Assembly (NCBI RefSeq): GCF_014132355.1
Contig: NZ_BLZO01000188.1
Coordinates: forward strand, 1-64,000
Direction of reading: 5' to 3'
Source of the DNA: Okeania sp. KiyG1
Lineage (GTDB): Bacteria > Cyanobacteriota > Cyanobacteriia > Cyanobacteriales > Microcoleaceae
DNA: 64,000 nucleotides
The notes below the pieces were generated by a model that was not told the DNA's origin, searched no databases, and saw nothing but the letters and a program-made list of their open reading frames with translations. Positions within the stretch are counted from its first letter, which is position 1. Each line of letters opens with the position of its first letter. Positions 1-63,935 of this stretch are shown here, in pieces. The position numbers and the translations under genes are program-made.

Positions 1-21
1 AGTTCAAATTCACCCTAGACA

Positions 22-321: not shown

Positions 322-421
322 CTTAATAGTAATACCTGGTTACTTTTAAGCTAAATAAAAACTACAAGGAAGTTACAAGCTTCCCTATAGCCAAAAAAGA
401 TAATTAAAAAATTCTTGAACC

Positions 422-829
422 ATGAATATAGCACATTTCGAGGATATAAATCCAGCCTCCCTACTTTTGCAATTCCAGTGGCTATCCCAAACGCAACTAG
501 CAAAAGCCCTGGGAGTCAATCCATCTGCCGTATCGAGATGGATGTGTGGCGCAACAAACCCAAGCCGGACTATTCAACGACTAGCCTGGGAACTTTTACA
601 GATTTTAAATAAGTGGCCACTGCCGTTCCCTCCAAAAATCGAAACAGCAGAATTGGACCCACTACAACTGCTAACAAAATTTAATATTTCCCGTTTTACA
701 TTAGCTGAAGCTCTAGGAGTTTCGGTTCGAGCTATTGGCCACTGGATTAATGGCCAGAACAAACCATCTCGAAAAGTACGCCGATTGGCCCATCAACTGA
801 ATCAAAAGTGGGTTGTACTAACCGGATAG
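422..829 (+). CDS. Double helix-turn-helix DNA-binding protein, copy 1
   Basis: A 135-residue protein made of two similar halves, each carrying an XRE-like HTH: QLAKALGVNPSAVSRWM at ~25-41 and LAEALGVSVRAIGHWING at ~93-110, each followed by N-x-P-S-R. A protein with two HTHs can bind two half-sites alone, so a plasmid regulator role is inferred. The ATG at 422 follows a TTGAAC stretch with no good Shine-Dalgarno. It lies 100 bp after the small HTH gene and 300 bp before the giant modular gene. The copy at 54869 is identical. Confidence 0.7.
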   Translation: MNIAHFEDINPASLLLQFQWLSQTQLAKALGVNPSAVSRWMCGATNPSRTIQRLAWELLQILNKWPLPFPPKIETAELDPLQLLTKFNISRFTLAEALGVSVRAIGHWINGQNKPSRKVRRLAHQLNQKWVVLTG

Positions 830-856
830 GATGTAGTGATCGCTCCCCCGTGTAAT

Positions 857-878
857 CAAGTGCAGTTAGTTGCACTTG
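857..878. promoter_or_regulatory. 8-bp-arm palindrome between HTH gene and modular gene
   Basis: CAAGTGCA at 857-864 and TGCACTTG at 871-878 are perfect inverted repeats with a 6-base loop, in the 304-bp gap (830-1133) between the double-HTH gene and the giant gene. There is no T-run after it, so an operator is likelier than a terminator. The rest of the gap holds a GATCGATC-rich stretch near 950-962 and AT-rich sequence with TATACT at ~978. No convincing gene was seen. Confidence 0.4.
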
Positions 879-1133
879 AGCCGAGCATCACTCCATCCGT
901 ACTTCCGTTGCATCATAGTAATATTGCATTCATGTTAAAAATCTTGAACTGCGATCGATCGTTCAAAAAATACCAAACTATACTGTATATAGCTGCAGTT
1001 GTGTTATTTCAGATCGCGAATCGTATATACAAGATTTTCAATTAACCCCCGCAACCCACCACTCTCTGATGTACACGGAATTCCCACTGTCTGCAACCAG
1101 GAAATTCTGTAAACGATATCAATAAAATTCATT

Positions 1134-6100: not shown

Positions 6101-6318
6101 AGACTTACATAGTTTGGAACGGAACGCAGAAATGCGGGAAAATCAACCTTTGCAATAAAAGCAAAAACAAAGCAGGATTTGGCAAATGGTACGTCAGTCC
6201 CAACGTTTTCGGACCATACTACGACACCATCGAAAAAGCAGCGACAGCGTGTTGGCAAGACTTTATTTCCCAAAATGCTGAACAGACGGCAACACAAGAA
6301 GACTTAATACCTTTCTAA
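3103..6318 (+). CDS. Giant modular protein, C-terminal part with ASCH-like domain and repeated YxIDL-type modules, copy 1
   Basis: The frame is open and coding-like from 3103, but its first usual starts are TTG 3373 and ATG 3379. One extra A in the A5 run at 3096-3100 would fuse it to the methyltransferase frame, giving about 1,728 residues in all. Counting from TTG 3373: related ~75-residue modules at 5-78, 95-183, 274-348, 494-570 and 750-836, each ending in a pattern like L..LY.IDI..LIE.I; a KOW-like stretch near 366-420 (GVLQLVNGQVATIQWL); an ASCH-like domain 616-727 with TVTRR and AAEGF signatures; and a terminal WY-type module 896-964. ASCH domains often bind RNA or modified bases. Overall function unknown. 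The copy at 57820 is identical. Confidence 0.7.
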   Translation, partial: LTLTERITPLLLENWVIKTIDNNQIFIYSSDTQNSSNWVKVTDISHTEHGKTFPFLVSHETRFINDVKTIEEAIERATWWFDCPIIDNLELLMDTINSYDTDLLKITREENSNTAHILSGENQLGTIFLKSNDTLEIPEREYHLLEDLYSIDIGTLIEDIEKQKLGNYRDYLTGVSSLEQELNHLDTLQNALHCLSNHLNFIVIRQGEIFKAYNGKEWLENYLGSVKVNDLEIKPDEELINNLLEQYSFLLNQLTIDIIKGEQSIEIENYIITSEPIKELLIKETWNEQDLETANNLLNKLVESTPPWNELTETIRHKHQKIFEKDPEQTDDNDTNNGGSITPTPSPKNPNNNGSQTIESTKEELDTLFSAIQSYQTDLNIQKNNNKLTFYQQKYRLGSVELNPNKLVAEEGLIANLKISYGIDIKGLIESIEFASLDNCFELDPFEHIGKSNPAIFIPGCVVAPTWKEGRGLQGVLQLVNGQVATIQWLNSLDHGDNVPEQVNIGLLRYIAAQQTAKNDSLHTEALSDEPTAENFAALKFGGLIAATTVNNTNTNKENSEVVENTTASSFPDDNEDLIWEDLTWMDAIKVKLEKLEGFTVSHDEVDLTAWHYGTKVGSIHHNEENELEIEQKLIGELAKYNFDLEAFLVNLNIPYKFYHLKPVVITPTTERSDLQTSEQESSSEQKMTKKPPVEELNYQVNGKSISFGLTLPQLLSEQKTVTRRMWKDSYAKRFLNDWNARPGEFLYPALTKSYRVGGKQVGYIKLTHQPYQEKLADIPTSDLAAEGFPELSRAEFINKFFDGNDQQIAWVIRFDFIPNKEKPENNAEQIGENSPLPLDLLDQMTAVFDGLESIRTSRSGNVLWFYRGSENLYPCSMKTFDDNTSTLFPTVKLNDKMKELYGIDIDRVCYDLETGKEVNINNYIDHSVLEQTIKDSHKNNDTITWQDLLNNAAYLDITDSQTSDELNTSTTTEQSQTNTEEHPERLHWLKDTSMFNRSETYIVWNGTQKCGKINLCNKSKNKAGFGKWYVSPNVFGPYYDTIEKAATACWQDFISQNAEQTATQEDLIPF

Positions 6319-6357
6319 AACAATTAATAATTAACAATTAATAATTAATAATTAGGA
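6319..6357. repeat. AT-rich TTAATTATTAATT-type repeat, left of S23 ORF
   Basis: Overlapping units of AATTAATAATTAAC fill this stretch just after the stop of the modular gene. The reverse complement of the same motif occupies 6718-6753, on the other side of the four-helix-bundle ORF. Similar units recur at 32811-32930, 35220-35270 and 35525-35635. Confidence 0.7.
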
Positions 6358-6367
6358 ATTAAAAATC

Positions 6368-6726
6368 ATGGAAAAAATAATGTAATCCAAAACAAATCTT
6401 TCAAATTTGCACTACGAATAGTTAAGTTATCACAATATCTAAACCAGGATAAAAAAGAGTATGTTTTATCAAAACAAATACTTCGGAGTGGTACAGCAAT
6501 TGGTGCTTTAGTGCGTGAATCTGAATATGCGGAAAGCCGTGCTGACTTTGTGCATCAACTGCGGATTGCCATCAAAGAAGCTAACGAAACGCAATATTGG
6601 TTAGAGCTATTACATCAAGCTGATTACATTAATAAAAAAGGTTTTAAATCAATTAATCAAGACTGTATTGAAGTCATAAAAATCTTAATCGCAATCATCA
6701 AATCAACAACAAAAAATAATTATTAA
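6368..6726 (+). CDS. Four-helix-bundle (S23/IVP-type) protein, copy 1, start obscured
   Basis: The frame ending at 6726 encodes a typical S23-family sequence: FALRIVKLSQYL, LSKQILRSGTAIGALV, DFVHQLRIAIKEANETQYWLELL. The family forms four-helix bundles and was first seen inside 23S rRNA intervening sequences; its role is poorly known. The likely ATG at 6368 is out of frame because the following A-run (6372-6377) has six A where seven would fit, so only a GTG at 6511 remains as an in-frame start. The second copy has another homopolymer loss (60898-60902). The ORF sits between inverted AT-rich repeats, as if inserted as a unit. Confidence 0.65.
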
Positions 6727-6753
6727 TTGTTAATTACTAATTGTTAATTATTA
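6718..6753. repeat. AT-rich repeat, right of S23 ORF
   Basis: Units of TTAATTGTTAATTACTAATT, the reverse complement type of the repeat at 6319-6357. It overlaps the last codons of the S23 ORF and runs up to the AACAGGAG ribosome site of the next gene. Confidence 0.65.
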
Positions 6754-6772
6754 ACAGGAGTGCCAAAGTCAA

Positions 6773-7871
6773 ATGAATCCACATTTTATTAACAATACCA
6801 ACGTCAACAACAATTCCGACAACACGACAGAAACAGAATCACAACAATGTATGAGTGATAGCGTTACCAAATCTTATAACACCTTTTCCGGTGACGAGCA
6901 TCTACCCGAAGGCCATATAACAACCCATCCCTTTAGTCTTACTCTAGAGGAACTTTCAAGCTTGCTTAACAATGGCCAGGAATCCAGTGAAAGTGTAACT
7001 ACGAAACCAGAGGCAATTTCTCAAAACCTACGAGTCACCCACCATCAGGATTGTAGCGGTTCCACAGAGGACTCTAGGGAACTGTCACAGTCCAAACCAG
7101 CAGAAAACAGTGAATGCCTCAATCAATCAACAATCCCTGGCCTAATTCAAGATGGCCTACCAAAACAAAAAAAATCTGAAACTCTACAAACCAGACTTAA
7201 TCAGGACTCTAGGGTTTCTACTGAGTACTCTATAGAAAAATCTCCCAACAAACCAGTTGGGGGCAGTAGAAAAAACAACAAATCCACATCTGTTGGCCAA
7301 TTATCTGATAGTCCAATTAATTGTGAAAAAGCTCAACTTCTGAAAACTTTACCAAACAAAGACTCTAGGGTTTCTACTGAGTACTCTATAGAAAAATCTC
7401 CCAACAAACCAGTTGGGGGCAGTAGAAAAACAACAAATCCACATCTGTTGGCCAATTATCTGATAGTCCAATTAATTGTGAAAAAGCTCAACTTCTGAAA
7501 ACTTTACCAAACAAAGACTCTAGGGTTTCTACTGAGTACTCTATAGAAAAATCTCCCAACAAACCAGTTGGGGGCAGTGGATGGCTTCATAAATACACAA
7601 AATTAATCGAAACAAAGACTGGAGTTGTTGAATATCCCCGTGTCAAAGAAGGTCAACGTTCTCAATACAATCCTAAACACTGGTATTGGAACTACTGCTG
7701 GCATAAGAAAGGGAAAAACGGTAAACCTTTGTACAAAAAGGGCAAAGCAGTAGTCTCCTCAGTCGGATGTCCGATCAAAAGGTAAGAGCAGCTAGTAGTG
7801 CGATCGCTGCCAAACTACCACATCGCCAAATTTTAGAAATAATCAAAGGCGACAACTCCCCACCCACATAG
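6773..7871 (+). CDS. Tandem-repeat protein with basic C-terminal domain, copy 1 (frame-broken)
   Basis: An ACAGGAG ribosome site precedes ATG 6773. The protein is polar and Asn/Ser-rich, then carries a 52-residue repeat beginning DSRVSTEYSIEKSP, then a basic domain with HWYWNYCWHKKGKNG. Copy 1 has two full repeat units plus a partial one; the second full unit is 155 bp rather than 156 because its A-run at 7426-7430 has five A instead of six, so the frame ends at 7498. Copy 2 (61219) has one full unit plus a partial one and stays open to the basic domain. In both copies the frame after the stop at 7783-7785 reads on as VRAASSAIAAKLPHRQILEII up to 7871 if A4 at 7777-7780 were A5. Function not recognised; the C-terminus could bind nucleic acid. 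Confidence 0.6.
7205..7578 (+). repeat. 156-bp in-frame tandem repeat (2 full + 1 partial units)
   Basis: Units begin at GACTCTAGGG: 7205, 7361 and 7516, the last running only ~63 bp before the sequence diverges. Period 156 bp equals 52 codons. The matching array in the second copy (61651-61869) has one full and one partial unit. Confidence 0.9.
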
Positions 7872-7940
7872 ACTTTCACCATTATACATCTTAATACAAC
7901 AACCCATCACTTCTGAAAATTTTTTAATCACTGAAAACTT

Positions 7941-9609
7941 ATGAATTTACCATCAGTAGCATCTCAAACAAAACTGCTGCAACCCTCATTGTTACAGCAG
8001 CATACTCAAAAACCTGGAAGAAGATCAACAATTATCTCTAAACCTCATTATAGCATCATCACAAATTCCCCAACTCAGAGATTACCAGCTCCAAGTTATT
8101 GACGATCTATACAAGTTCATCAAGCACAACCACCGCCGAATATTAATTGTCGCCCCTACTGGAGCAGGGAAAACTATAATTGCTGCTTCCTTCATACATC
8201 AAGAATATTCCAGTGGTAAAACTATATTGTTCATCGTTCATCGTGATGTGCTTATCAAGCAAACACTAAATAAATTTGCTAACTTCGGCATTGAATGTGG
8301 AGTCATTGCTGGAGGCTACAAAGAAACTCGCTCTGCCAAAGTTCAGATAGCCAGCGCACAAACTCTCAGTCGAAGGAAAATCAATTGGTTTGCTCCTGAC
8401 ATTGTATTAATAGATGAAGCACATCAAACCGCCTGGAACAAAGTAGTAAAGAGACAATTAGAAAATTACCAAGGTGAATTTGGCAATACCACCTTTATAG
8501 GTCTCACCGCTACTCCCTGGAGACTTTCAAAACGAGAAGCAATGTCAGACCTATTCGATACCCTCATTGCAGCTCCAACTCCAGGCGAACTTATCCTCAA
8601 AGGATACTTGACACCCCCAATTTACTACAGTGTTGATGGTGCTGACCTCAAAGGAGTGCGGACTGTAGCAGGTGATTATGATAACTCTGAGTTAGTAGTA
8701 CGTTGCAATGTGCCAAAGGTCGTCGAAACTCTAGTCTCCGAATGGAAGCGATTAGCCAACGGTAGATTAACCATTGGCTTTGCTGTAAATGTAGCACACG
8801 CAAAAGCGATCGCCACTGCCTTCAATCAAGCTGGCATCCCCGCAGCAAGTGTAGACGGCACCATGCCCACAAAAATGCGAGAAGTAATTTATTCACAATT
8901 ACAATCAGGACTCATCAAAGTCTTAGCAAGTTGTGAGGCATTGGGAGAAGGTTTTGATGTCCCTGCCATTTCTTGCGTTTTATTATGTCGTCCCACTAAA
9001 TCTAAGGCTAAGGCATGGCAACAGATAGGCCGTGCAGCAAGACGCTTTAAGGGTAAACATGACTTCTTAATTCTAGACCAAGCAGGGATAATCGCACGAT
9101 TTGGTTTCATTGAGGATACCACAATATTTACCCTGGGGAAATCCGACAACACCCCCACTGGTGTAGCTCCCACAAAAATTTGTCCGAGTTGTAACGCCAT
9201 AAATCGCAATTTCGACAAGGTGTGTAGCTGTTGTGGCTATCAATATCCAGCAGCACCATTACCTAAACTTTTACCTACTCAAGAGTTCAAACTATTACGC
9301 TGCACGGCAGATAAGGTCAAGCAATATCGCCATTACCATGAACTGCTCACAGAAGCTTACCATCGAGGACTAAAATCTAATTGGGCAGATAAACAATACC
9401 AAATTCATTATGGATACTGGCCTCCCTACAAATGGATGCACGGTGCCATATTTGGTTCGCAACCTACTGTGGCTGACAAAGTTGCGTATCAAAAATATTT
9501 ACTCCGCCTGATGAAAGCCGACGGTCAGTGCATAGGTTGGGTTGAACACCACATGAAGATGATTTTTGGCGATCAAACATCCGTTCCGCTCCGCGATAAC
9601 TATGTTTAG
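7941..9609 (+). CDS. SF2 DEAH-type helicase with zinc ribbon, copy 1 (apparent N-terminal frame break)
   Basis: Helicase motifs in order: LRDYQLQVID (Q-like), APTGAGKT (motif I, near 8153-8176), LIDEAH (II), LTATPWR (III), QQIGRAAR (VI), then a four-cysteine zinc ribbon (CPSCNAI...CSCCGYQYP). It should unwind or remodel nucleic acid using ATP. Motif I lies upstream of any usual start in its frame (first is TTG 8227, which would lose motif I). The ATG at 7941 comes into frame if the A5 run at 8008-8012 were A4, giving about 555 residues. Both copies show the same break. It lies upstream of rep and may serve replication or transfer. Confidence 0.75.
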
Positions 9610-9623
9610 CTACGCTATCGCGT

Positions 9624-9836
9624 GTGAAGATAAGGCTTGAAAAGAAAAAAAACTACGGGACTAACACCCCCGTAGAGAAAACAAACAAAAATGAAAAAAC
9701 TTATGAACAAATTATTGCACAAACATCAAAATTCTGCAACTACTACCCTAATCTCCGCTGTCAAAACTTCTTTACAGGAGGAAGTGTAAAATGGATTGGA
9801 AAATATTTAATCGCCACCCCAGAGCCTCAGAAATAG
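9624..9836 (+). CDS. Short ORF in the rep leader, overlapping rep
   Basis: A 70-codon Lys-rich frame from GTG 9624 that overlaps the rep start by 46 bp. It has no clear ribosome site. Pairs of a small ORF overlapping a CyRepA1-type rep are known (Ssr7036 before Slr7037 on Synechocystis pSYSA), so a leader-peptide or translational-coupling role is possible, but sequence similarity cannot be judged here. It could equally be a chance frame. Confidence 0.3.
   Translation: MKIRLEKKKNYGTNTPVEKTNKNEKTYEQIIAQTSKFCNYYPNLRCQNFFTGGSVKWIGKYLIATPEPQK
9645..9675 (-). terminator. Hairpin with T-run on the minus strand in the rep leader (candidate antisense RNA terminator)
   Basis: CTACGGG (9653-9659) pairs with CCCGTAG (9669-9675) around a 9-base loop. 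On the plus strand the stem is preceded by eight A and followed by no T-run. On the minus strand it reads as a GC stem followed by eight T, the form of an intrinsic terminator. It would end a transcript antisense to the rep leader. A TTGACA is present on the minus strand at 9764-9759, though a good -10 at the right distance is lacking. Confidence 0.5.
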
Positions 9837-12800
9837 CAGAAGGTTTAGGAATTATCCCTCCTAACTTGGCATTAACACCAGTAAGAGAAAAACGCCCCTA
9901 TAGAAGTAACTGGCAACATGAAGAGCCAGTTAGTAGGGAAGCGATCACTACTGCCATAACCCAAGGGCAAGATTTAGTCAGTAAAAAAGGTAAACCATAT
10001 ACAGCTTTTGATTCTGGATATGGGGTAAGACTAGGTGAGATATCCGATGGACTGCTGGCCATAGATGTAGATGGCGCTAGTGCCGAACCTATTCTCAAGG
10101 CTATTTGTCCAGATTTACCTAAATCTGTAAGTTGGACATCAGGAAAACCAGGACGGTATCAAATAGCATTTCAAATCCCGCCGGAGTATAGGGAAAAATT
10201 AGCCAACTTTACCCGAGCTGTAGTCCGAGAGTGGAAGGGCTTAAAAACTGACACAGACGAACTTTTAGAATTTCGTTATAATTATTGCCAGTCCGTTCTG
10301 CCGCCCTCCTACCATCCAACAACTGGTAGATATAGCTGGGTAAATTCCCCAGCAGATACAGAAGTAGCGATTGCCCCACAACCTATCCTAGATGTACTCC
10401 TAGAACTAGCCGACAAGGAAGCTAAGGCCACCACTGAAGCTGAGGTGAAAAAGGCAGAACGCGCGCGGTACTTAGAGCAACGTAAACTAGAAAGACAAGC
10501 CTTACCTACTCTCAGCACTGCTGACTCCTTAGCCGATATCCTAGAGCTGGACATCCTCCCCAGGCTAAATACAGAAGATATATATAATTGGAGCGAGCAT
10601 CAATTTAAAAAGCATGGGCCCAATAAATTAGTTGGTTACTGTCCACAACACAACGGGTCTAGCGGTACGGCATTTCAAGTAAATACAAAAGACAATTCCT
10701 GGTATTGTCATGGTTGTCAGGAAGGCGGTCATCCTGTTCAATATCGTTGGTTTTTGAAAGGTGAGCATGGCACACCTACAGGCAAGGATTTTGTGGAGAT
10801 AGTTGAAGAGTTGGCTGACGATGCTGGCGTAGAACTGCCGGAGTGGAAACCACCGCAGAAACAAAGTCAGTCTAAATTAATACCTGAAACTGAATACAAC
10901 TTCAAACACAAGTTCCCACGTCTACTAAAAGATACAGTCAGTAATCTGGCTCAAGATCTTAAAGATAAGGTAGCCAGACCTGCTTATAAGTATTTCCGTC
11001 GGAATGGCAAACTACCACCCGCGCCAGAGCTACACCCCAAAGAAAAACAACGTATTCGTCAAGCGAATGTTGCAGAAGCAAAACATTTAGCAGAAACTAC
11101 TACAGCAATAGTTAAATGGGAACCGCCTTTACTATTAGGTAAAATTCAAATTAGATTAGGAGATGATCCTAATAACTGGAATGTACCAACAGACTTTGAA
11201 GATTGGAAAAATCAAGGTAGTCCAGCTTATGTAGTTCCTCCAGGGATGAGGAATATTTTTGAAGCTCTTATGGTCAAACGCGGTATCAAAAATTTGTTTG
11301 ACTCTAGTGGTACTGGTACTGGCAAAAGCCATGACACAGGTAATTTACCACCTTATTTGGGAATCAATCCCCATACACAAAAAAAATCTGAAGACGACCC
11401 TACTCTCTACTATATTTGTGACGACCCGCGTAACCCCACTACAGAAAGCATTGAGAGTAATTCGGTTGTTTTGCCATCTCGTCATAGTGGTTTAGTTGAA
11501 GATACTACCAAGCAAACGCCTTTGGGATACCCTCATATCCGCCGACCTAAAGGTAAGGAAGAGCCTACTATAGAAGCATCTTGCATCAGAGAAGCTATAT
11601 TTAGATATTTCCCCGAATTTAAAAATCGGACTCTATTCGGCGGTAAAGCTTCTGCTGGATGCCAAGGATGTCCCAAGTTGTTGAATGAGGACGGTAAAGT
11701 AGTTTGTCCACTGCTGGTTGGGCGCTGGAAAACTAAACAATACGCACCATTTATCCGTTCTCATCCTCAACAGCTCTCTACACTATCTGAAACAGATATT
11801 GCAGTAGTAGATGAAGCTGCCAAGATTCTTAAATCAACAAAGGACATATTTGTAGGTAGTGAATCATTAAATGAAGCTTTCTATGAATTAGGAACTAACC
11901 TCATAAAGCATCAAGTAGATGGCCTGCATTATGGCAATGCTATCTTCCGCGCTCTCTCTCCTTTAATCCAAATAATGAAGGAAATGATGGTATTTATAGA
12001 TTCCACTCCCAACATTAAGAAAAATGGATTGAATCATAATGAGTTTATTAATTTAATGTTTGAGAAGTTAGCCGATCTTTATTGTAGTCATGGTCTAATT
12101 ACAGAGCAAGAAAAAACGCTTTTTTTAGAAGCTAAATCAGGCAATTCTAATTCCAGTGATGTACTTCAATTAAAAAGTATTAAAGGTTCATGGATAGAAA
12201 AATTAATTAATCGTGCTTTGTGGAATTTATCTGCTGTTGAATTTTTAACTAAAACTGATACAAATATTTGGGGAGAAGTTCGGGTATTTGGAAATAAGGA
12301 TATTAGGGTTGTCAATGTAAGTCCTACTGTTGAAGATGTAGTTCAAATCCTCAAAGAAGTATATAAACCAAACTTAGAAAATTTGATTGAGGATGATAAT
12401 TTGCCTTGGGAAATCCAACGAAAACGGATTGATGAAAAGTGTAAATTAAACTTTGTTACTCCACTACTAAATGTTCTGACTGGAAGTAGGGGATATATCC
12501 AAGCTAAAAGCTATGGGTTTTATATAACTCAGTCAGATAACCATGTAAAGCGGAGTCTTTTCAATGCTCAGAGTATTATCTATAAGGACGCAACAGCACG
12601 ACCTGAAGATATAGCTATGCGTATAGGTGTTGATTCTGAGGATATCCTGGAATATAAAGTCGCTACACCTGCTGCTACTAATTTAGTTATTAAATTAGTA
12701 GGTGGTTTCGGTAGTTGTGGAGCACAACGGGATAGTAAGGAACAGAGAGAAAAGGGATTGAGTGAAGCTTCGCTACCAAAACGATTAATCAAAGGTGTAG

Positions 12801-13783
12801 AAAAAATTATAGCGGATTCCATATCTCTTACAGCACAGCTTGGTAAAAAGGCGAAAATAGCTTTGATTGATTTTCAGGGGCAACTCTCTAATTATAAAGA
12901 TATACAAGGGATTGATTATTTTGGTTATTGGTGGCGAGATAACCGAGGAACTAATATACTCCAGGACTATGACGTAATCATCGCTATAGGCAACCCTACG
13001 GCAAATCTAGGTGCTAAGGCGGCTTCCTTTAGAACTTTGACTGGTAAGTATGCTAATCCTGCTAACCCTACTGAGGAGTTTAAGGAGTATATCCAGCATT
13101 CTGTGGTCAGTGAAAAATTACAGTTAGTCGGTCGTCTCAGAGCGCATTTACAGCCTCACAAACAGAAGGAAGTTCATCTACTGGGGGATTATTCGGAACA
13201 TTTGATTTGGCAGCTAAAAGATAAATTTCCCGGATGCCAAATCAATAAAATGATGGCTTATGATTTATGTCCCGAAGCTGCAACCCGACGAGACCTTGAC
13301 ACTAAGATGGCCATTGAACTGGGTATGAAGTTACTACGTTTTGGTCAAAAAGTAACCCAGGAGAAAATAGCTAAGGAGATGGGATGTAGTCAAAGTTGGG
13401 TGAGTAAGATTTTTAAGAAGTTGTCTCCTGAAGGGGGGTATAAGGAGACAATTAAATTATTCCACTCCCTTAATAATCTATTTTTAAGGAAGTGGAATAA
13501 TTCTGATAATCCCATGGATGGGTTATCTGATGAAGTTAGGTGGATAGCTGAGACTTATTTTCCAGCGTTGGTATCTGACTTGATAAATGGTGATGAACTA
13601 CCGTCAGATTTGATTGAGGTGGTGGACATAGCTAGGGAGGATTTTGGAGCTGATTTGTTCAAGTTGTTGGATATTGATACAGTTTTTGATTTTATTATGG
13701 GGTTGGTGGGGCAACTTCCTGGGGATTTGAGGCAGTTGTTTGAGGATATATTGGGGCCACCACCAGATTTTGCTTCTGGGTGA
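9791..13783 (+). CDS. CyRepA1-like plasmid replication protein (primase-polymerase/helicase)
   Basis: A strong AGGAGG at 9777-9782 precedes ATG 9791. The 1,330-residue protein has the layout of cyanobacterial CyRepA1-type initiators: a primase-polymerase N-terminus with AIDVDG (metal-binding acidic residues at 92-94) and SGKPGRYQ at 117-124; a CHC2-like zinc finger at 284-309 (YCPQH...WYCHGCQ); a P-loop GTGTGKS ending at 513; a DEA box at 674-676 (AVVDEAAK); and a helix-turn-helix near 1188-1211 (TQEKIAKEMGCSQSWVSKIF). It should recognise the origin, prime synthesis and unwind DNA. It is intact and is the best landmark for the plasmid. A second copy would start beyond the right edge of the window. 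Confidence 0.88.
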   Translation: MDWKIFNRHPRASEIAEGLGIIPPNLALTPVREKRPYRSNWQHEEPVSREAITTAITQGQDLVSKKGKPYTAFDSGYGVRLGEISDGLLAIDVDGASAEPILKAICPDLPKSVSWTSGKPGRYQIAFQIPPEYREKLANFTRAVVREWKGLKTDTDELLEFRYNYCQSVLPPSYHPTTGRYSWVNSPADTEVAIAPQPILDVLLELADKEAKATTEAEVKKAERARYLEQRKLERQALPTLSTADSLADILELDILPRLNTEDIYNWSEHQFKKHGPNKLVGYCPQHNGSSGTAFQVNTKDNSWYCHGCQEGGHPVQYRWFLKGEHGTPTGKDFVEIVEELADDAGVELPEWKPPQKQSQSKLIPETEYNFKHKFPRLLKDTVSNLAQDLKDKVARPAYKYFRRNGKLPPAPELHPKEKQRIRQANVAEAKHLAETTTAIVKWEPPLLLGKIQIRLGDDPNNWNVPTDFEDWKNQGSPAYVVPPGMRNIFEALMVKRGIKNLFDSSGTGTGKSHDTGNLPPYLGINPHTQKKSEDDPTLYYICDDPRNPTTESIESNSVVLPSRHSGLVEDTTKQTPLGYPHIRRPKGKEEPTIEASCIREAIFRYFPEFKNRTLFGGKASAGCQGCPKLLNEDGKVVCPLLVGRWKTKQYAPFIRSHPQQLSTLSETDIAVVDEAAKILKSTKDIFVGSESLNEAFYELGTNLIKHQVDGLHYGNAIFRALSPLIQIMKEMMVFIDSTPNIKKNGLNHNEFINLMFEKLADLYCSHGLITEQEKTLFLEAKSGNSNSSDVLQLKSIKGSWIEKLINRALWNLSAVEFLTKTDTNIWGEVRVFGNKDIRVVNVSPTVEDVVQILKEVYKPNLENLIEDDNLPWEIQRKRIDEKCKLNFVTPLLNVLTGSRGYIQAKSYGFYITQSDNHVKRSLFNAQSIIYKDATARPEDIAMRIGVDSEDILEYKVATPAATNLVIKLVGGFGSCGAQRDSKEQREKGLSEASLPKRLIKGVEKIIADSISLTAQLGKKAKIALIDFQGQLSNYKDIQGIDYFGYWWRDNRGTNILQDYDVIIAIGNPTANLGAKAASFRTLTGKYANPANPTEEFKEYIQHSVVSEKLQLVGRLRAHLQPHKQKEVHLLGDYSEHLIWQLKDKFPGCQINKMMAYDLCPEAATRRDLDTKMAIELGMKLLRFGQKVTQEKIAKEMGCSQSWVSKIFKKLSPEGGYKETIKLFHSLNNLFLRKWNNSDNPMDGLSDEVRWIAETYFPALVSDLINGDELPSDLIEVVDIAREDFGADLFKLLDIDTVFDFIMGLVGQLPGDLRQLFEDILGPPPDFASG

Positions 13784-54868: not shown

Positions 54869-55276
54869 ATGAATATAGCACATTTCGAGGATATAAATCC
54901 AGCCTCCCTACTTTTGCAATTCCAGTGGCTATCCCAAACGCAACTAGCAAAAGCCCTGGGAGTCAATCCATCTGCCGTATCGAGATGGATGTGTGGCGCA
55001 ACAAACCCAAGCCGGACTATTCAACGACTAGCCTGGGAACTTTTACAGATTTTAAATAAGTGGCCACTGCCGTTCCCTCCAAAAATCGAAACAGCAGAAT
55101 TGGACCCACTACAACTGCTAACAAAATTTAATATTTCCCGTTTTACATTAGCTGAAGCTCTAGGAGTTTCGGTTCGAGCTATTGGCCACTGGATTAATGG
55201 CCAGAACAAACCATCTCGAAAAGTACGCCGATTGGCCCATCAACTGAATCAAAAGTGGGTTGTACTAACCGGATAG
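54869..55276 (+). CDS. Double helix-turn-helix DNA-binding protein, copy 2
   Basis: Identical 135-residue product to the one at 422; see there for the two HTH motifs. The start of perfect identity between the two repeat copies lies just upstream of this gene. Confidence 0.7.
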   Translation: MNIAHFEDINPASLLLQFQWLSQTQLAKALGVNPSAVSRWMCGATNPSRTIQRLAWELLQILNKWPLPFPPKIETAELDPLQLLTKFNISRFTLAEALGVSVRAIGHWINGQNKPSRKVRRLAHQLNQKWVVLTG

Positions 55277-55579
55277 GATGTAGTGATCGCTCCCCGTGTA
55301 ATCAAGTGCAGTTAGTTGCACTTGAGCCGAGCATCACTCCATCCGTACTTCCGTTGCATCATAGTAATATTGCATTCATGTTAAAAATCTTGAACTGCGA
55401 TCGATCGTTCAAAAAATACCAAACTATACTGTATATAGCTGCAGTTGTGTTATTTCAGATCGCGAATCGTATATACAAGATTTTCAATTAACCCCCGCAA
55501 CCCACCACTCTCTGATGTACACGGAATTCCCACTGTCTGCAACCAGGAAATTCTGTAAACGATATCAATAAAATTCATT

Positions 55580-57553
55580 ATGATACATCTACAAAGCCAA
55601 CAAGAGCTGGTGAGAATTCTTCAAGTCCAGCTACAGCAAGAACAAGAACGTCTAGAAGACATGAGTAATGCGGATACAAAAATTTCCGCATTAACAGGAG
55701 AGTTGGCTCCAATACTCGAAAAGTATCCCGTATATCGAGCCGATGTTGCCGAGCAACTCGGATTAATCTTACCAACATTACCGTCACCAACACTGCGAGT
55801 AATTGAAATAGTTGATGGCGATTATCGAAAAGACGAACAAAAAAATGTAGTCTCGGACACAAAACCCTCAAAATATACCGAAAGTAGTAATTGTCTAGAT
55901 GATAATAGTCTAGACAATCAGACAGAACTGCCTGCAACAGAGAACGCATCAAAAGATGTTGATGTAACTTGGTACAACTCCATCAGTGGAGAAGTAAGTG
56001 CAGGGAACGAACGAAGGTATTTTCGGGTACTTTGGAACAACAAACAAAATCAACATCAAGTAGGTCTCAAAAAATCTGAATCCGCCAAGAGGTGGAGTAA
56101 AGATATCAATCCCACTACTCAACCCTTAATAGATAGGGTGGAGAAAGAATTCAAACTAGGAAAACCTGCTGAAAATTTTCGACAGAAATTGTACGAAGCA
56201 GCAGAGGAAGTAGGAGGTAAGTTTACTGCTTCTTTATGTAATTTAGGTACTTCCGGCACTTTCCATCTAAATGAAACTTTTGGCGTTTTTCAGATCGAGA
56301 ATGAAGATATCGAGGTAGGTCATAACGACGGTAACTTTTGGTATATCCGTCCTGGTCGCAACAAAGTTTACTGTTCTGGCGACCTTCTTGCCTTTGCTGA
56401 AATATTGAAAGGTATAAAAACGGATATAGTTTTAGCGGAGCAGAAATCAAAAGATAGCATAACTCCTCAGCTTAAGGCAGCAGAAAATACCCAAATAGAC
56501 ACTGCTGAGATAGTAGATGTAGCTACGGTTCCTACTGTCACTTGGTACAACAGCAGTACCGGAGAAGTAAAAAAAGGTTCTTTTAAAAGGTATTTCCGGA
56601 TAATTCCGGACGATATCAAAGATGAGCATGAAATCAAGTTTAAACAAAAAACCAACTCAGGAAACTGGATTCAACCAGATAACTCTACTAAACTATTTGC
56701 GGAGGCTATCTGGGAAGAATTCAAAGCAGGTAAACCCGATGCAGTAGAAGCCATTCTACAGAGATTGTACAATGTGCCAGAAAAAGTAGGAGGTAAGTTT
56801 GTCAAAAGTCATTCAAGCTGTACTGTAGGTAAGTTGGGCACTTCTTATATCCCAAATCAAGAAAGTATTGAAGTAGGCTATAACGACGGTAGTTATTGGT
56901 ATTTTCGTCCTGGGTATGAAAAAGTTTACTATTCGGGAGATGTTCATGAGTTTGCTGAAATCTTAACAGGTTTAGTAAAAAAAGAGCCACCAATATCCAA
57001 TTCTTCAAAAATAGAAACAGCTAAACCAAAATCCTCAGACTGTTGGTACACACCACCAGAGATTGTTGAATTAGTAGAACTTGTGTTAGGAAAAATAGAC
57101 CTAGACCCCTGTTCTGACGACGGAAAACACATACCAGCAAAATACCACAAAACCATAAGAGAAGATGGACTTGCTTGTGTATGGTTTGGGAAAGTATTCA
57201 TCAACCCACCCTATAGCTGTCCTGGTAAATGGATAGAGAAACTGATTTCAGAAGTTAATGACAGTAACGTCACAGAAGCGATCGCTCTCTTGCCAGCATC
57301 AACAGATACTAAATGGTTTAAACCACTGTGGAATCAACCCATCTGTTTTTGGAAAGGAAGGATTAAATTCCTAGACGTTAATTACCAACCAAAACTACCC
57401 GCACGTCAGTCACATTGTCTAGTCTATTGGGGAGAAAATATAGAGAAATTTAGACAAGTATTTTCTCAGTTTGGAGAAGTAAAGTTACCAACAAAAAACG
57501 AATCTACACAGGTTGAAGTTGAAGTTGACCCCAAAGAAGTAGAAAAACATTAA
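55580..57553 (+). CDS. Giant modular protein, N-terminal part with Dam-type adenine methyltransferase, copy 2 (intact frame)
   Basis: 657 codons, uninterrupted because the A-run at 55839-55845 has seven A. Order: coiled coil 1-62, linker, WY-type modules 129-278 and 320-466, methyltransferase 487-634. In the last, WYTPPEIVELVE, DLDPCSDDGKHIPAKYH, INPPYS (542-547) and LLPASTDTKWF match phage Dam-type N6-adenine methyltransferases. The stop lies right after A5 at 57543-57547; one more A would read through into the next frame (EKTLTLTERITPLLL). Confidence 0.8.
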   Translation: MIHLQSQQELVRILQVQLQQEQERLEDMSNADTKISALTGELAPILEKYPVYRADVAEQLGLILPTLPSPTLRVIEIVDGDYRKDEQKNVVSDTKPSKYTESSNCLDDNSLDNQTELPATENASKDVDVTWYNSISGEVSAGNERRYFRVLWNNKQNQHQVGLKKSESAKRWSKDINPTTQPLIDRVEKEFKLGKPAENFRQKLYEAAEEVGGKFTASLCNLGTSGTFHLNETFGVFQIENEDIEVGHNDGNFWYIRPGRNKVYCSGDLLAFAEILKGIKTDIVLAEQKSKDSITPQLKAAENTQIDTAEIVDVATVPTVTWYNSSTGEVKKGSFKRYFRIIPDDIKDEHEIKFKQKTNSGNWIQPDNSTKLFAEAIWEEFKAGKPDAVEAILQRLYNVPEKVGGKFVKSHSSCTVGKLGTSYIPNQESIEVGYNDGSYWYFRPGYEKVYYSGDVHEFAEILTGLVKKEPPISNSSKIETAKPKSSDCWYTPPEIVELVELVLGKIDLDPCSDDGKHIPAKYHKTIREDGLACVWFGKVFINPPYSCPGKWIEKLISEVNDSNVTEAIALLPASTDTKWFKPLWNQPICFWKGRIKFLDVNYQPKLPARQSHCLVYWGENIEKFRQVFSQFGEVKLPTKNESTQVEVEVDPKEVEKH

Positions 57554-60500
57554 CACTCACAGAAAGAATCACACCATTACTATTAGAAAATTGGGTAATA
57601 AAAACCATAGATAATAATCAAATATTTATCTACTCATCAGACACACAAAACAGTAGTAATTGGGTAAAAGTAACTGATATTTCTCACACAGAACATGGGA
57701 AAACCTTCCCCTTCCTAGTCTCCCACGAAACCCGATTTATCAACGATGTCAAGACGATAGAAGAAGCGATCGAAAGAGCAACTTGGTGGTTTGACTGCCC
57801 TATCATTGACAACCTTGAATTGTTGATGGACACCATTAACAGTTACGACACGGACTTACTTAAAATAACTAGGGAAGAAAACTCAAACACAGCTCATATC
57901 CTGTCGGGAGAAAATCAATTAGGCACAATCTTTCTCAAAAGCAATGATACGTTAGAAATTCCAGAACGCGAATACCACCTACTCGAAGACTTGTACAGCA
58001 TCGACATAGGTACTTTAATCGAAGACATCGAAAAACAAAAGCTAGGTAATTATCGTGATTATCTAACAGGAGTAAGTAGTTTAGAACAAGAATTGAACCA
58101 TCTAGACACTCTCCAAAATGCACTCCACTGCCTCTCTAATCATTTGAATTTCATCGTCATCCGTCAAGGAGAAATATTTAAAGCTTACAACGGTAAAGAA
58201 TGGTTAGAAAATTACTTAGGCTCCGTCAAAGTTAATGATTTAGAAATCAAACCAGACGAAGAGTTGATTAATAATCTATTAGAACAATATTCATTTCTAC
58301 TCAATCAACTAACCATTGATATTATCAAAGGTGAACAATCAATTGAAATAGAAAATTACATCATCACTTCGGAACCCATCAAAGAATTACTAATTAAAGA
58401 AACCTGGAATGAACAAGACTTGGAAACTGCCAATAATCTACTCAATAAACTTGTAGAATCAACTCCACCCTGGAACGAATTGACAGAAACTATACGCCAT
58501 AAACATCAAAAAATATTTGAAAAGGACCCCGAACAAACTGATGATAATGACACTAATAATGGAGGCTCCATTACTCCGACTCCCTCTCCCAAAAACCCTA
58601 ACAATAATGGCAGTCAGACAATTGAATCAACAAAAGAAGAATTAGACACATTATTTTCAGCAATCCAATCATACCAAACCGACTTAAACATTCAAAAAAA
58701 CAACAACAAATTAACCTTCTATCAACAGAAATACAGACTAGGTTCTGTCGAACTAAATCCAAATAAATTAGTAGCAGAAGAAGGCTTAATAGCAAACCTC
58801 AAAATCTCCTACGGAATCGACATCAAAGGTTTAATTGAATCGATAGAATTCGCATCACTTGATAATTGCTTTGAACTAGACCCATTCGAGCATATTGGCA
58901 AAAGTAATCCAGCCATCTTTATCCCTGGATGCGTCGTCGCTCCCACTTGGAAAGAGGGACGCGGACTACAAGGAGTACTACAGTTAGTCAATGGACAAGT
59001 AGCCACTATTCAATGGCTGAACTCCTTAGACCACGGGGATAATGTGCCAGAACAAGTAAACATTGGTTTGCTCCGTTATATTGCAGCTCAACAGACAGCT
59101 AAAAATGACAGCCTTCACACTGAAGCATTAAGCGATGAACCCACAGCAGAAAACTTTGCTGCACTGAAATTTGGCGGTCTGATAGCAGCAACTACTGTTA
59201 ACAACACTAATACCAACAAAGAAAACTCAGAAGTCGTTGAAAATACTACTGCTTCTAGCTTTCCTGATGACAACGAAGACCTAATCTGGGAAGACCTGAC
59301 CTGGATGGATGCCATCAAAGTAAAACTCGAAAAGCTCGAAGGTTTTACGGTAAGCCATGATGAGGTAGACCTCACTGCATGGCATTACGGTACAAAAGTA
59401 GGTAGCATCCACCACAACGAGGAAAACGAACTAGAAATAGAACAAAAATTAATTGGTGAACTGGCTAAATATAACTTCGACCTAGAAGCATTTTTAGTAA
59501 ATCTTAATATCCCCTATAAGTTCTATCACCTCAAACCAGTCGTCATCACACCAACAACCGAACGCTCTGATCTTCAAACCTCTGAACAGGAATCTAGCAG
59601 TGAGCAAAAAATGACAAAAAAGCCTCCAGTAGAGGAATTAAACTATCAAGTAAATGGCAAAAGTATCAGCTTCGGTTTAACCCTACCACAGCTACTATCA
59701 GAACAAAAAACAGTCACGCGGAGGATGTGGAAAGATAGCTACGCCAAACGCTTCCTTAATGACTGGAATGCCAGACCGGGAGAGTTTCTCTACCCTGCAC
59801 TAACGAAAAGCTATCGAGTTGGTGGTAAGCAAGTTGGTTACATCAAACTCACCCATCAACCTTACCAAGAAAAATTAGCCGATATACCCACTTCTGACTT
59901 AGCAGCAGAAGGTTTTCCAGAACTATCACGCGCAGAATTCATCAACAAATTCTTTGATGGTAACGACCAACAAATAGCATGGGTAATTCGGTTTGATTTT
60001 ATCCCTAATAAGGAAAAGCCTGAAAATAACGCAGAGCAAATAGGTGAAAACTCACCATTACCATTAGACCTGCTCGACCAAATGACTGCTGTATTTGATG
60101 GGTTAGAGAGCATCCGTACCTCTCGCTCTGGAAACGTACTTTGGTTTTACCGTGGGTCTGAAAACCTCTATCCCTGTTCAATGAAAACCTTTGATGATAA
60201 TACTTCCACACTTTTCCCTACTGTCAAGTTGAACGACAAAATGAAAGAACTATATGGTATTGATATAGATCGAGTCTGTTATGACTTAGAAACAGGTAAA
60301 GAGGTTAATATCAATAATTATATTGACCATAGCGTTTTGGAGCAAACAATTAAAGACAGCCACAAAAACAATGATACTATCACTTGGCAAGACTTATTAA
60401 ATAATGCTGCCTACTTAGATATTACTGATAGTCAAACTTCTGATGAGTTGAACACATCCACAACCACAGAACAGTCACAGACCAATACAGAAGAACATCC

Positions 60501-60765
60501 TGAAAGACTACATTGGCTCAAAGACACATCAATGTTTAACCGTAGTGAGACTTACATAGTTTGGAACGGAACGCAGAAATGCGGGAAAATCAACCTTTGC
60601 AATAAAAGCAAAAACAAAGCAGGATTTGGCAAATGGTACGTCAGTCCCAACGTTTTCGGACCATACTACGACACCATCGAAAAAGCAGCGACAGCGTGTT
60701 GGCAAGACTTTATTTCCCAAAATGCTGAACAGACGGCAACACAAGAAGACTTAATACCTTTCTAA
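57550..60765 (+). CDS. Giant modular protein, C-terminal part with ASCH-like domain, copy 2
   Basis: Identical to 3103-6318. Usual starts in frame are TTG 57820 and ATG 57826, but the ~270 bp before them also code convincingly (WVIKTIDNNQIFIYSSDTQ, FINDVKTIEEAIERATWWF), a WY-type module. This argues that it is translated as an extension of the methyltransferase frame rather than from TTG/ATG. Confidence 0.7.
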   Translation, partial: LTLTERITPLLLENWVIKTIDNNQIFIYSSDTQNSSNWVKVTDISHTEHGKTFPFLVSHETRFINDVKTIEEAIERATWWFDCPIIDNLELLMDTINSYDTDLLKITREENSNTAHILSGENQLGTIFLKSNDTLEIPEREYHLLEDLYSIDIGTLIEDIEKQKLGNYRDYLTGVSSLEQELNHLDTLQNALHCLSNHLNFIVIRQGEIFKAYNGKEWLENYLGSVKVNDLEIKPDEELINNLLEQYSFLLNQLTIDIIKGEQSIEIENYIITSEPIKELLIKETWNEQDLETANNLLNKLVESTPPWNELTETIRHKHQKIFEKDPEQTDDNDTNNGGSITPTPSPKNPNNNGSQTIESTKEELDTLFSAIQSYQTDLNIQKNNNKLTFYQQKYRLGSVELNPNKLVAEEGLIANLKISYGIDIKGLIESIEFASLDNCFELDPFEHIGKSNPAIFIPGCVVAPTWKEGRGLQGVLQLVNGQVATIQWLNSLDHGDNVPEQVNIGLLRYIAAQQTAKNDSLHTEALSDEPTAENFAALKFGGLIAATTVNNTNTNKENSEVVENTTASSFPDDNEDLIWEDLTWMDAIKVKLEKLEGFTVSHDEVDLTAWHYGTKVGSIHHNEENELEIEQKLIGELAKYNFDLEAFLVNLNIPYKFYHLKPVVITPTTERSDLQTSEQESSSEQKMTKKPPVEELNYQVNGKSISFGLTLPQLLSEQKTVTRRMWKDSYAKRFLNDWNARPGEFLYPALTKSYRVGGKQVGYIKLTHQPYQEKLADIPTSDLAAEGFPELSRAEFINKFFDGNDQQIAWVIRFDFIPNKEKPENNAEQIGENSPLPLDLLDQMTAVFDGLESIRTSRSGNVLWFYRGSENLYPCSMKTFDDNTSTLFPTVKLNDKMKELYGIDIDRVCYDLETGKEVNINNYIDHSVLEQTIKDSHKNNDTITWQDLLNNAAYLDITDSQTSDELNTSTTTEQSQTNTEEHPERLHWLKDTSMFNRSETYIVWNGTQKCGKINLCNKSKNKAGFGKWYVSPNVFGPYYDTIEKAATACWQDFISQNAEQTATQEDLIPF

Positions 60766-60814
60766 AACAATTAATAATTAACAATTAATAATTAATAATT
60801 AGGAATTAAAAATC

Positions 60815-61172: not shown

Positions 61173-61218
61173 TTGTTAATTACTAATTGTTAATTATTAA
61201 CAGGAGTGCCAAAGTCAA

Positions 61219-62162
61219 ATGAATCCACATTTTATTAACAATACCAACGTCAACAACAATTCCGACAACACGACAGAAACAGAATCACAACAATGTATGA
61301 GTGATAGCGTTACCAAATCTTATAACACCTTTTCCGGTGACGAGCATCTACCCGAAGGCCATATAACAACCCATCCCTTTAGTCTTACTCTAGAGGAACT
61401 TTCAAGCTTGCTTAACAATGGCCAGGAATCCAGTGAAAGTGTAACTACGAAACCAGAGGCAATTTCTCAAAACCTACGAGTCACCCACCATCAGGATTGT
61501 AGCGGTTCCACAGAGGACTCTAGGGAACTGTCACAGTCCAAACCAGCAGAAAACAGTGAATGCCTCAATCAATCAACAATCCCTGGCCTAATTCAAGATG
61601 GCCTACCAAAACAAAAAAAATCTGAAACTCTACAAACCAGACTTAATCAGGACTCTAGGGTTTCTACTGAGTACTCTATAGAAAAATCTCCCAACAAACC
61701 AGTTGGGGGCAGTAGAAAAAACAACAAATCCACATCTGTTGGCCAATTATCTGATAGTCCAATTAATTGTGAAAAAGCTCAACTTCTGAAAACTTTACCA
61801 AACAAAGACTCTAGGGTTTCTACTGAGTACTCTATAGAAAAATCTCCCAACAAACCAGTTGGGGGCAGTGGATGGCTTCATAAATACACAAAATTAATCG
61901 AAACAAAGACTGGAGTTGTTGAATATCCCCGTGTCAAAGAAGGTCAACGTTCTCAATACAATCCTAAACACTGGTATTGGAACTACTGCTGGCATAAGAA
62001 AGGGAAAAACGGTAAACCTTTGTACAAAAAGGGCAAAGCAGTAGTCTCCTCAGTCGGATGTCCGATCAAAAGGTAAGAGCAGCTAGTAGTGCGATCGCTG
62101 CCAAACTACCACATCGCCAAATTTTAGAAATAATCAAAGGCGACAACTCCCCACCCACATAG
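61219..62162 (+). CDS. Tandem-repeat protein with basic C-terminal domain, copy 2
   Basis: Open from ATG 61219 to 62076 (285 codons), with one full and one partial 52-residue unit (61651-61869) and then the basic domain GWLHKYTKLIETKTG...HWYWNYCWHKKG. It confirms that the early stop in copy 1 is due to the short A-run. The frame after the stop continues as VRAASSAIAAKLPHRQILEII to 62162. Confidence 0.65.
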
Positions 62163-62231: not shown

Positions 62232-63900
62232 ATGAATTTACCATCAGTAGCATCTCAAACAAAACTGCTGCAACCCTCATTGTTACAGCAGCATACTCAA
62301 AAACCTGGAAGAAGATCAACAATTATCTCTAAACCTCATTATAGCATCATCACAAATTCCCCAACTCAGAGATTACCAGCTCCAAGTTATTGACGATCTA
62401 TACAAGTTCATCAAGCACAACCACCGCCGAATATTAATTGTCGCCCCTACTGGAGCAGGGAAAACTATAATTGCTGCTTCCTTCATACATCAAGAATATT
62501 CCAGTGGTAAAACTATATTGTTCATCGTTCATCGTGATGTGCTTATCAAGCAAACACTAAATAAATTTGCTAACTTCGGCATTGAATGTGGAGTCATTGC
62601 TGGAGGCTACAAAGAAACTCGCTCTGCCAAAGTTCAGATAGCCAGCGCACAAACTCTCAGTCGAAGGAAAATCAATTGGTTTGCTCCTGACATTGTATTA
62701 ATAGATGAAGCACATCAAACCGCCTGGAACAAAGTAGTAAAGAGACAATTAGAAAATTACCAAGGTGAATTTGGCAATACCACCTTTATAGGTCTCACCG
62801 CTACTCCCTGGAGACTTTCAAAACGAGAAGCAATGTCAGACCTATTCGATACCCTCATTGCAGCTCCAACTCCAGGCGAACTTATCCTCAAAGGATACTT
62901 GACACCCCCAATTTACTACAGTGTTGATGGTGCTGACCTCAAAGGAGTGCGGACTGTAGCAGGTGATTATGATAACTCTGAGTTAGTAGTACGTTGCAAT
63001 GTGCCAAAGGTCGTCGAAACTCTAGTCTCCGAATGGAAGCGATTAGCCAACGGTAGATTAACCATTGGCTTTGCTGTAAATGTAGCACACGCAAAAGCGA
63101 TCGCCACTGCCTTCAATCAAGCTGGCATCCCCGCAGCAAGTGTAGACGGCACCATGCCCACAAAAATGCGAGAAGTAATTTATTCACAATTACAATCAGG
63201 ACTCATCAAAGTCTTAGCAAGTTGTGAGGCATTGGGAGAAGGTTTTGATGTCCCTGCCATTTCTTGCGTTTTATTATGTCGTCCCACTAAATCTAAGGCT
63301 AAGGCATGGCAACAGATAGGCCGTGCAGCAAGACGCTTTAAGGGTAAACATGACTTCTTAATTCTAGACCAAGCAGGGATAATCGCACGATTTGGTTTCA
63401 TTGAGGATACCACAATATTTACCCTGGGGAAATCCGACAACACCCCCACTGGTGTAGCTCCCACAAAAATTTGTCCGAGTTGTAACGCCATAAATCGCAA
63501 TTTCGACAAGGTGTGTAGCTGTTGTGGCTATCAATATCCAGCAGCACCATTACCTAAACTTTTACCTACTCAAGAGTTCAAACTATTACGCTGCACGGCA
63601 GATAAGGTCAAGCAATATCGCCATTACCATGAACTGCTCACAGAAGCTTACCATCGAGGACTAAAATCTAATTGGGCAGATAAACAATACCAAATTCATT
63701 ATGGATACTGGCCTCCCTACAAATGGATGCACGGTGCCATATTTGGTTCGCAACCTACTGTGGCTGACAAAGTTGCGTATCAAAAATATTTACTCCGCCT
63801 GATGAAAGCCGACGGTCAGTGCATAGGTTGGGTTGAACACCACATGAAGATGATTTTTGGCGATCAAACATCCGTTCCGCTCCGCGATAACTATGTTTAG
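62232..63900 (+). CDS. SF2 DEAH-type helicase with zinc ribbon, copy 2
   Basis: Identical to 7941-9609, including the A5 run that separates ATG 62232 from the helicase frame. Motif I (APTGAGKT) lies before the first in-frame TTG at 62518, so the longer, frame-corrected gene is the functional one. Confidence 0.75.
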
Positions 63901-63935
63901 CTACGCTATCGCGTGTGAAGATAAGGCTTGAAAAG

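Follow-up and report, generated by a model that had tools for sequence, protein, structure and literature searches.

Do two adjoining open reading frames on a cyanobacterial contig encode two proteins or one, and if one, what would an ASCH-like domain be doing behind an adenine methyltransferase? The question is raised by a stretch of 64,000 nucleotides from Okeania sp. KiyG1 (contig NZ_BLZO01000188.1, here C188, positions 1–64,000; hereafter the window), part of a genome assembly of 10.98 Mb in 198 contigs. A frame of 657 codons carrying a Dam-type methyltransferase (P1, 55580–57553) is followed by a frame that is open from 57529 to 60765 (P2) and holds the ASCH-like domain towards its end. 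The reading we favour, at a probability of roughly 60%, is a single orphan Dam-type methylase of ~1,728 residues, encoded in a mobile replication block, with modules on both sides of the catalytic domain and an ASCH-like domain near the C-terminus that would bind a modified base. The layout itself is a variation on known kinds; the interest lies in the recurrent link between ASCH domains and methyltransferases.

The joint between the two frames

P1 terminates right behind a run of five adenines (A5). P2 measures 1078 codons from stop to stop, but its earliest start codon is a TTG at 57820, which would give a product of 981 aa (an ATG follows at 57826). One extra A at the joint connects 656 residues of P1 with 1072 of P2, a total of 1728. 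The stretch 57547–57820 is coding, aligning with Okeania proteins from residue 1 onward at 37–50% identity. The A5-terminated frame, the start-less coding stretch and the total length had all been put forward in the original prediction and were reproduced here. The other window copy of the gene has A5 too, at 3096–3100. Two separate genes with a good second start were rejected, because a start at TTG 57820, the first in frame, would cut off a module that is conserved from the joint onward; by eye, the 40 bases upstream of this TTG contain no clear ribosome-binding site.

Relatives were sought by running an alignment of P2 residues 1–336 against genome contigs, which yielded six homologous loci (L089–L094) in five other Okeania metagenome-assembled genomes (MAGs); partial Dam frames on contigs C22 and C178 of G250 were excluded because these contigs end before the joint. 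At all six loci the P1 and P2 parts lie in one uninterrupted frame, so that the two-gene arrangement named in the original prediction as evidence against a fusion is seen at none. Four of the frames are complete (1031, 1052, 1113 and 1263 codons), and the other two end with their contig past the joint. The joints of the relatives read GAAACTACT with an A-run of at most three (joint sequence GAAGTTGAAACTACT), and a longer A-run is found ~15 bases downstream, in frame. Viral contigs gave 178 pattern matches with the P2 N-terminal alignment, none of which was confirmed.

The KiyG1 genome holds four copies of the gene: two in the window, where 1–9709 matches 54447–64000 (copies A and B), one on C43 and one on C64. 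In C64 the joint has six adenines and the frame runs across it, extending over 1649 codons stop to stop with zero substitutions relative to the window gene. A paralogue on C153 of the same genome also reads through the joint, with two frame changes further on. An alignment of the four copies over 54850–63990 showed 10 sites of differing run length, a single-base insertion elsewhere (in C43, at 61917) and one tandem unit of 155–157 bases, within which the single substitution column falls; inside the gene (55580–60765) they vary at two A-runs only. Run-length differences without substitutions are a pointer to long-read base calling. The duplicates are copies of one block, not independent genes, and so give no independent evidence of conservation, which comes from the Okeania loci.

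The second variable run lies at 55839, where A6 in copy A, C64 and C43 shifts the frame near residue 84 and copy B alone has A7. We take the A6 to be a short call because relatives L089, L092 and L093 read A7, the open-frame length, and by like reasoning the A5 at the joint would be a short call of A6. The frames 55580–57553 and 57529–60765 are thus very likely one gene encoding one polypeptide, as the original prediction had proposed, and the stop behind A5 is probably a homopolymer-length error (undercall) of the assembly.

Three observations count against this account of the joint. No assembled copy is open at both runs (copy B is open at 55839 and closed at the joint, C64 the reverse), A5 stands at the joint in three of the four copies, and the two window copies share a length that sets them apart from C64 and C43 at 4 of the 10 run-length sites, which means that part of the variation could be genuine rather than base-calling noise. 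Such a consistent contig pattern is what real variants would give, and a true frameshift would leave the gene broken or phase-varied by run length in some copies, with a 657-aa product there. Yet the four copies show zero substitutions within the gene, the runs are merely 5–7 bases long, the second run is short in 3/4 copies when set against the relatives, and the neighbouring helicase also has a frame change; we consider a true frameshift improbable. Programmed slippage at A5, suggested earlier as a source of both short and long products, is allowed on paper by GAA AAA C, which permits a one-base back-slip of tRNA-Lys. It found no support and was rejected because the relatives encode the fusion directly: none of the six conserves the slippery site, their nearest longer A-run being downstream and in frame, and C64 has the fused frame. 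The chance that slippage operates here seems to us very small.

The methyltransferase and the ASCH-like domain

The methyltransferase call in the original prediction holds: PF05869 is matched above its curated Pfam cut-off (Table 1), and NPPYS agrees with the [DNS]PP[YFW] catalytic motif of that family. On sequence grounds we regard the assignment of this predicted writer part, an adenine methyltransferase, as well supported. The catalytic domain is the one found in Dam and phage N-6-adenine methyltransferases of PF05869. The score for the TIGR01712 phage_N6A_met equivalog stays below its cut-off (54.6 vs 97.05 bits), and in contrast to TIGR01712 proteins the Dam domain is here embedded in a modular protein of 1,031–1,263 codons in the complete relatives and ~1,728 in the window. 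Among the closest annotated Dam domains are those of Calothrix plasmids (58–65% in four plasmids), whose genes lie near DnaB helicase genes in AP018275 and AP025021. Neither P2 nor the WY modules found a match in the Calothrix proteins; these have a C-terminal domain of their own, and the one in AP018275 is annotated as a C-5 methylase. Measured against expectation, no palindromic tetramer is scarcer on the plasmid than GATC (82 seen, 188 expected, ratio 0.44). Its avoidance was rejected as a clue to the target: GATC is scarce in 12 other sampled contigs too (ratio 0.58 over 208 kb, leaving out C2 with 1,066 bases), so composition gives no information on this point.

P2 residues from about 700 to 823 were assigned as an ASCH-like domain, an identity that is supported indirectly, through profiles and relatives. 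L062, 49% identical in this domain, passes the PF04266 cut-off (21.5 vs 21.2 bits), and PF04266 matches at E up to 0.1 were obtained for 7 of the 24 members of one domain alignment (labelled A5, and distinct from the A5 run), the best at 5.5e-5. Set against YqfB together with five PF04266 matches, of which two fall below the cut-off, the profile gave 88% in hhalign (E 3.2e-6, 50 columns). Ten positions are invariant in all 29 aligned ASCH-like domains, including K27, T30, R32 and E94, which we take to be general ASCH signature positions. These four line up with Lys21, Thr24, Arg26 and Glu74 of Escherichia coli YqfB, the Glu paired by eye and the others by hhalign. Changes at these YqfB residues abolished or lowered the activity of the enzyme, according to the part of PMC6972931 available to us.

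Two results speak against the call. The window domain alone has no PF04266 match, with P2 searched up to E 1 and the genome scan taken up to E 0.1, and hhalign against YqfB alone is weak (24% over 21 columns). YqfB, an ASCH amidohydrolase, is moreover a stand-alone enzyme of 103 aa whose overall similarity to the window domain is very weak. In a profile search against solved structures, the ASCH profile returned chance-like matches to major histocompatibility complex (MHC) chains, and the profiles A1 and A2 returned none. Of the original ASCH-like assignment, then, the part that stands is drawn from profiles and relatives, and a direct Pfam match is missing.

How often do ASCH domains meet methyltransferases elsewhere? 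We surveyed ASCH frames at 22 genome loci (of 24 places outside G000; G313 C2 and G322 C177 were excluded) and 34 on viral contigs, leaving out L129, which has no ASCH match by profile. Methyltransferases were sought by phmmer in all 56 frames and by Pfam in 19 (15 genome, 4 viral). They were found in five genome frames, arranged as C5-ASCH-Dam-ParB-like-D12 in L057, as C5-ASCH-ParB-like-D12 in L058 and L060 and as ASCH-Dam in L031 and L034, the ParB-like stretches being below the Pfam cut-off or found by phmmer only. Four viral-contig frames also carry one (L095–L098). DNA polymerase A accompanies ASCH in two genome frames (L063 and L043), and 15 of the 22 have neither partner.

Dam and ASCH are combined in both domain orders. 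In L057, L096 and L095 (C5 methyltransferase, ASCH, Dam and ParB-like stretch, with or without a D12 methyltransferase), as in L031 and L034, members of the same ASCH subfamily share one frame with Dam, as in the window; there, however, ASCH precedes Dam, and WY or YxIDL modules were not noticed. The Dam domains of L057, L096, L095 and L034 are ~40% identical to ours, the exception being L031 of G166 at 65%. Across 62 family genomes ASCH occurs in 8 and Dam in 13, and five have both where 1.7 would be expected (hypergeometric P 0.008, ignoring kinship; in G285 the ASCH and Dam on one contig are fragments). In Okeania SIO3B5 the ASCH part is a separate frame on a different contig, and an ASCH-less Dam fusion lies elsewhere in the genome. 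The ASCH-fused label has to change at least three times on a Dam tree (22 rows), even on well-supported branches; these changes may be gains or losses, and several branches are long.

Individual loci show what such proteins look like. L057 (4877–8941, from a cyanobacterial genome) and L096 (2575–6642, from a viral contig) are frames of ~1,355 codons with a C5 methyltransferase, ASCH, Dam, a ParB-like stretch and a D12 adenine methyltransferase. L063 (5353–7959) and L043 (1420–3213) carry a member of this ASCH subfamily on the N-terminal side of a family A DNA polymerase with 3′–5′ exonuclease, and plasmids also have such a gene. At L180 (G285 C79, about 5081–7113, minus strand) fragments of Dam and ASCH share one strand, ~1 kb from each other and in the order seen in the window; they may come from a decayed or misassembled Dam-ASCH gene.

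Fusions of ASCH to HsdS, nuclease or ParB-CTPase folds are described in the accessible portions of PMC7641849, PMC10853773 and PMC12704722, and likewise tie ASCH to DNA modification or mobile-element proteins. In those accounts ASCH is joined to a specificity subunit, to a nuclease or to a ParB fold, whereas in the present protein it is joined to the methyltransferase itself. The literature searched, which mostly did not reach subscription journals, yielded no account of a Dam-ASCH fusion.

Modules and neighbouring genes

The remainder of the protein is built from modules (Table 1), whose homology was tested by profile searches within a set of 14 proteins. The original prediction had counted four WY and five YxIDL modules, and these uniform sets were not fully reproduced. 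Homology between the two P1 WY modules was confirmed. The third, at P2 10–96, matches a module in a 411-codon frame of Okeania SIO3B5 (1.5e-7) and not the P1 pair, and the C-terminal one had no detectable relative in the set. Four of the YxIDL modules match one another (best 4.1e-8, mostly 0.0003 to 0.05), and the fifth, at P2 586–659, belongs to a separate family. A coiled coil at P1 6–62 is an impression only, the PF16159 match being sub-threshold.

Table 1 Features of the predicted fusion and its surroundings in the window.
Feature	Position	Strand	Evidence or remark
First copy of the block (copy A)	1..9709	+	Joint A5 run at 3096–3100
Primase-polymerase, 1330 aa, behind the first block copy	9791..13783	+	PF09250 1.1e-19
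Helix-turn-helix (HTH) gene upstream of the fusion, 135 aa with two HTH stretches	54869..55276	+	Pfam HTH_3 1.9e-13
P1 (frame 1 of the fusion, 657 codons), with the N-terminal segment, both WY modules and a Dam-type methyltransferase	55580..57553	+	
N-terminal segment, P1 6–62	55595..55765	+	Shares 38–43% identity with the N-terminus of a different modular protein family in the same genus
A7 run	55839..55845	+	Window copy A (at 1393), C64 and C43 read A6; relatives L089, L092, L093 read A7
WY module 1, P1 127–288	55958..56443	+	
WY module 2, P1 318–465	56531..56974	+	Homologous to WY module 1; the C153 paralogue and L094 lack it
Dam-type N6-adenine methyltransferase domain, P1 483–606	57026..57397	+	PF05869 3e-17, 63.2 bits, cut-off 28.1
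NPPYS catalytic motif, P1 542–546	57203..57217	+	Invariant in 7/7 aligned sequences
A5 run at the joint	57543..57547	+	Same length in window copy A and C43; C64 has A6
Frame 2 of the fusion, P2, 1072 codons	57547..60765	+	No start codon upstream of TTG 57820
Module P2 10–96 (third WY of the original prediction)	57574..57834	+	In 6/6 fused relatives and the 411-codon SIO3B5 frame L056
YxIDL module 1, P2 87–164	57805..58038	+	
YxIDL module 2, P2 188–271	58108..58359	+	
YxIDL module 3, P2 353–428	58603..58830	+	Stretch mostly missing from relatives
Module P2 586–659, separate module family	59302..59523	+	Also in frame 27789–28736(-)
ASCH-like domain, P2 about 700–823	59644..60015	+	A3 profile 4.6e-51 (19 rows, the window domain being one); PHROG 11705 3.7e-16
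YxIDL module, P2 843–935	60073..60351	+	
C-terminal segment, P2 976–1066 (WY in the original prediction)	60472..60744	+	
Small gene	61219..62076	+	Conserved C-terminal GSGWL..HWYW..GCP segment
Superfamily 2 (SF2) helicase, 460-aa frame	62518..63900	+	Pfam PF00271, PF04851 on the other copy, 8227–9609

The modular family that shares the N-terminal segment has one member in the window, at 28676–30382 on the minus strand. It belongs to a second modular region (27789–30382, minus strand), in which a 569-aa frame with the same N-terminal segment and a YxIDL-like module is overlapped by a 316-codon frame carrying the module family of P2 586–659. Frames of 563–707 codons sharing the N-terminus of the 569-aa frame occur in the genus.

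The genes around the fusion are conserved with it. The HTH gene lies upstream at all six Okeania loci (tblastn 82–93% in L089–L094), the small gene and the SF2 helicase follow downstream at all four loci that reach that far, and the primase-polymerase is present at three of four, the fourth contig ending earlier. Helicase frames in the relatives span 556–582 codons, and the window copy has a frame change between 62300 and 62305. The set of HTH gene, fusion, small gene, SF2 helicase and primase-polymerase looks like a replication block. With Pfam we found no nuclease domain in the HTH, small, helicase and primase-polymerase genes (ResIII being taken as a helicase domain), and it is because no nuclease partner was found in the block that we call the methylase an orphan. 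Rfam gave no match within 54800–64000.

The same five genes make up 13.4 kb common to window 1–13419, C64 52773–66188 and C43 1–13401, with 1 to 4 mismatches. This shared stretch starts or stops at contig ends and is therefore either a multi-copy replication block or an assembly repeat; other sampled 20-kb stretches of C64 and C43 gave one 182-base match to the window only. The two window copies differ by 18 substitutions in the first 400 bases (1–400 vs 54447–54850). There copy A equals C64 and C43 except for one indel and copy B deviates, so the overlap of the window ends is not a simple circle closure.

Other observations concern single genes. The tandem unit in the small gene (7205–7578 and 61651–61869) differs in copy number between the window copies. 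A likeness of the small gene to the C-terminal domain of the Calothrix Dam proteins was weak (E 0.002 with a five-sequence set; hhalign 12.6%) and was not used. A 402-aa frame at 49939–51144 (minus strand) matches part of an IS1 transposase (1–62) and a MobA/VirD2 relaxase (155–281) and is probably an insertion scar. An AlkB-like reading of 26568–27101 was a motif impression only, with no Pfam match.

Possible roles of the fusion

The mechanism that fits best, we infer, pairs a writer with a reader of the mark that it makes or of a related one. The methyltransferase would mark the element's own DNA, and the ASCH-like domain would bind a modified base, most simply the N6-methyladenine (6mA) product. 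Once bound, it could hold or direct the enzyme on marked or half-marked DNA beside the helicase and primase-polymerase, with the other modules serving as scaffold or as protein- or DNA-contact parts. The likely gain would be shielding from host restriction, replication timed by methylation state, or both. ASCH domains are widespread and their function is mostly not known, according to the accessible parts of PMC6972931 and PMC9599836. The suggested reader role draws on the association itself, on a bioinformatic proposal that some ASCH domains read 6mA (PMC11037411, available in part) and on the ASCH-HsdS and ASCH-nuclease fusions (PMC7641849, PMC10853773, likewise in part). A narrower version, in which one polypeptide writes and reads adenine methylation, the ASCH-like domain recognising the 6mA made by Dam and coupling its state to plasmid replication through the helicase and primase-polymerase, is offered tentatively and seems to us rather unlikely.

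A number of results weigh against a methylase with a built-in reader. The four complete relatives stop near P2 residue 690, before the ASCH-like domain and all that follows it, and also lack most of P2 337–552; the complete layout consequently rests on this one genome, the only one in which the ASCH-like end of this fusion was found joined to its Dam part, although the two contig-cut relatives cannot show that end. In the survey, 17 of the 22 genome and 30 of the 34 viral ASCH frames had no methyltransferase, and PMC11037411 records the proposal that ASCH reads 6mA as lacking experimental confirmation. In PADLOC the helicase best matches a model of a type IV methyl-directed restriction enzyme, in its helicase part (8.2e-28), which makes a defence role of the block possible; SF2 helicases match widely, so we give this match little weight.

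What else could a single polypeptide of this kind do? It might serve self-protection only, as a plain orphan methylase acting against host restriction, its modules structural and its ASCH-like end a passenger. In favour of this, the ASCH end is missing in the four complete relatives, PADLOC does match the methyltransferase as orphan, and records matching the Dam part by itself number 638 for phages and 34 for plasmids; among the matches listed (25 phage, 34 plasmid) coverage extends to Dam only or slightly more. Set against this are the joining of Dam and ASCH in both orders, the label changes on the Dam tree and the tie of the block to replication genes, and we rate self-protection alone as unlikely, though not strikingly so. 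The ASCH-like domain might instead be an amidohydrolase-type enzyme acting on an N-acylated base, with no reader function. The invariance of K27, T30, R32 and E94 and their agreement with the catalytic positions of YqfB favour such an activity, but those residues are presumably common to ASCH domains at large, the direct YqfB alignment covers few columns, and the fused partners are DNA methyltransferases and DNA polymerase, which do not suggest N-acyl chemistry. We think an enzymatic role of this type distinctly unlikely.

Comparing redundant copies within one assembly, as here, can reveal a long frame that a run-length difference conceals. Should the writer-and-reader mechanism hold, the ASCH/methyltransferase fusions of cyanobacterial mobile DNA would form a family of such devices and would provide a first test set for the proposal of 6mA reading by ASCH domains. 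The recurrence of the fusion, in both orders, supplies concrete proteins with which that proposal can be tested.

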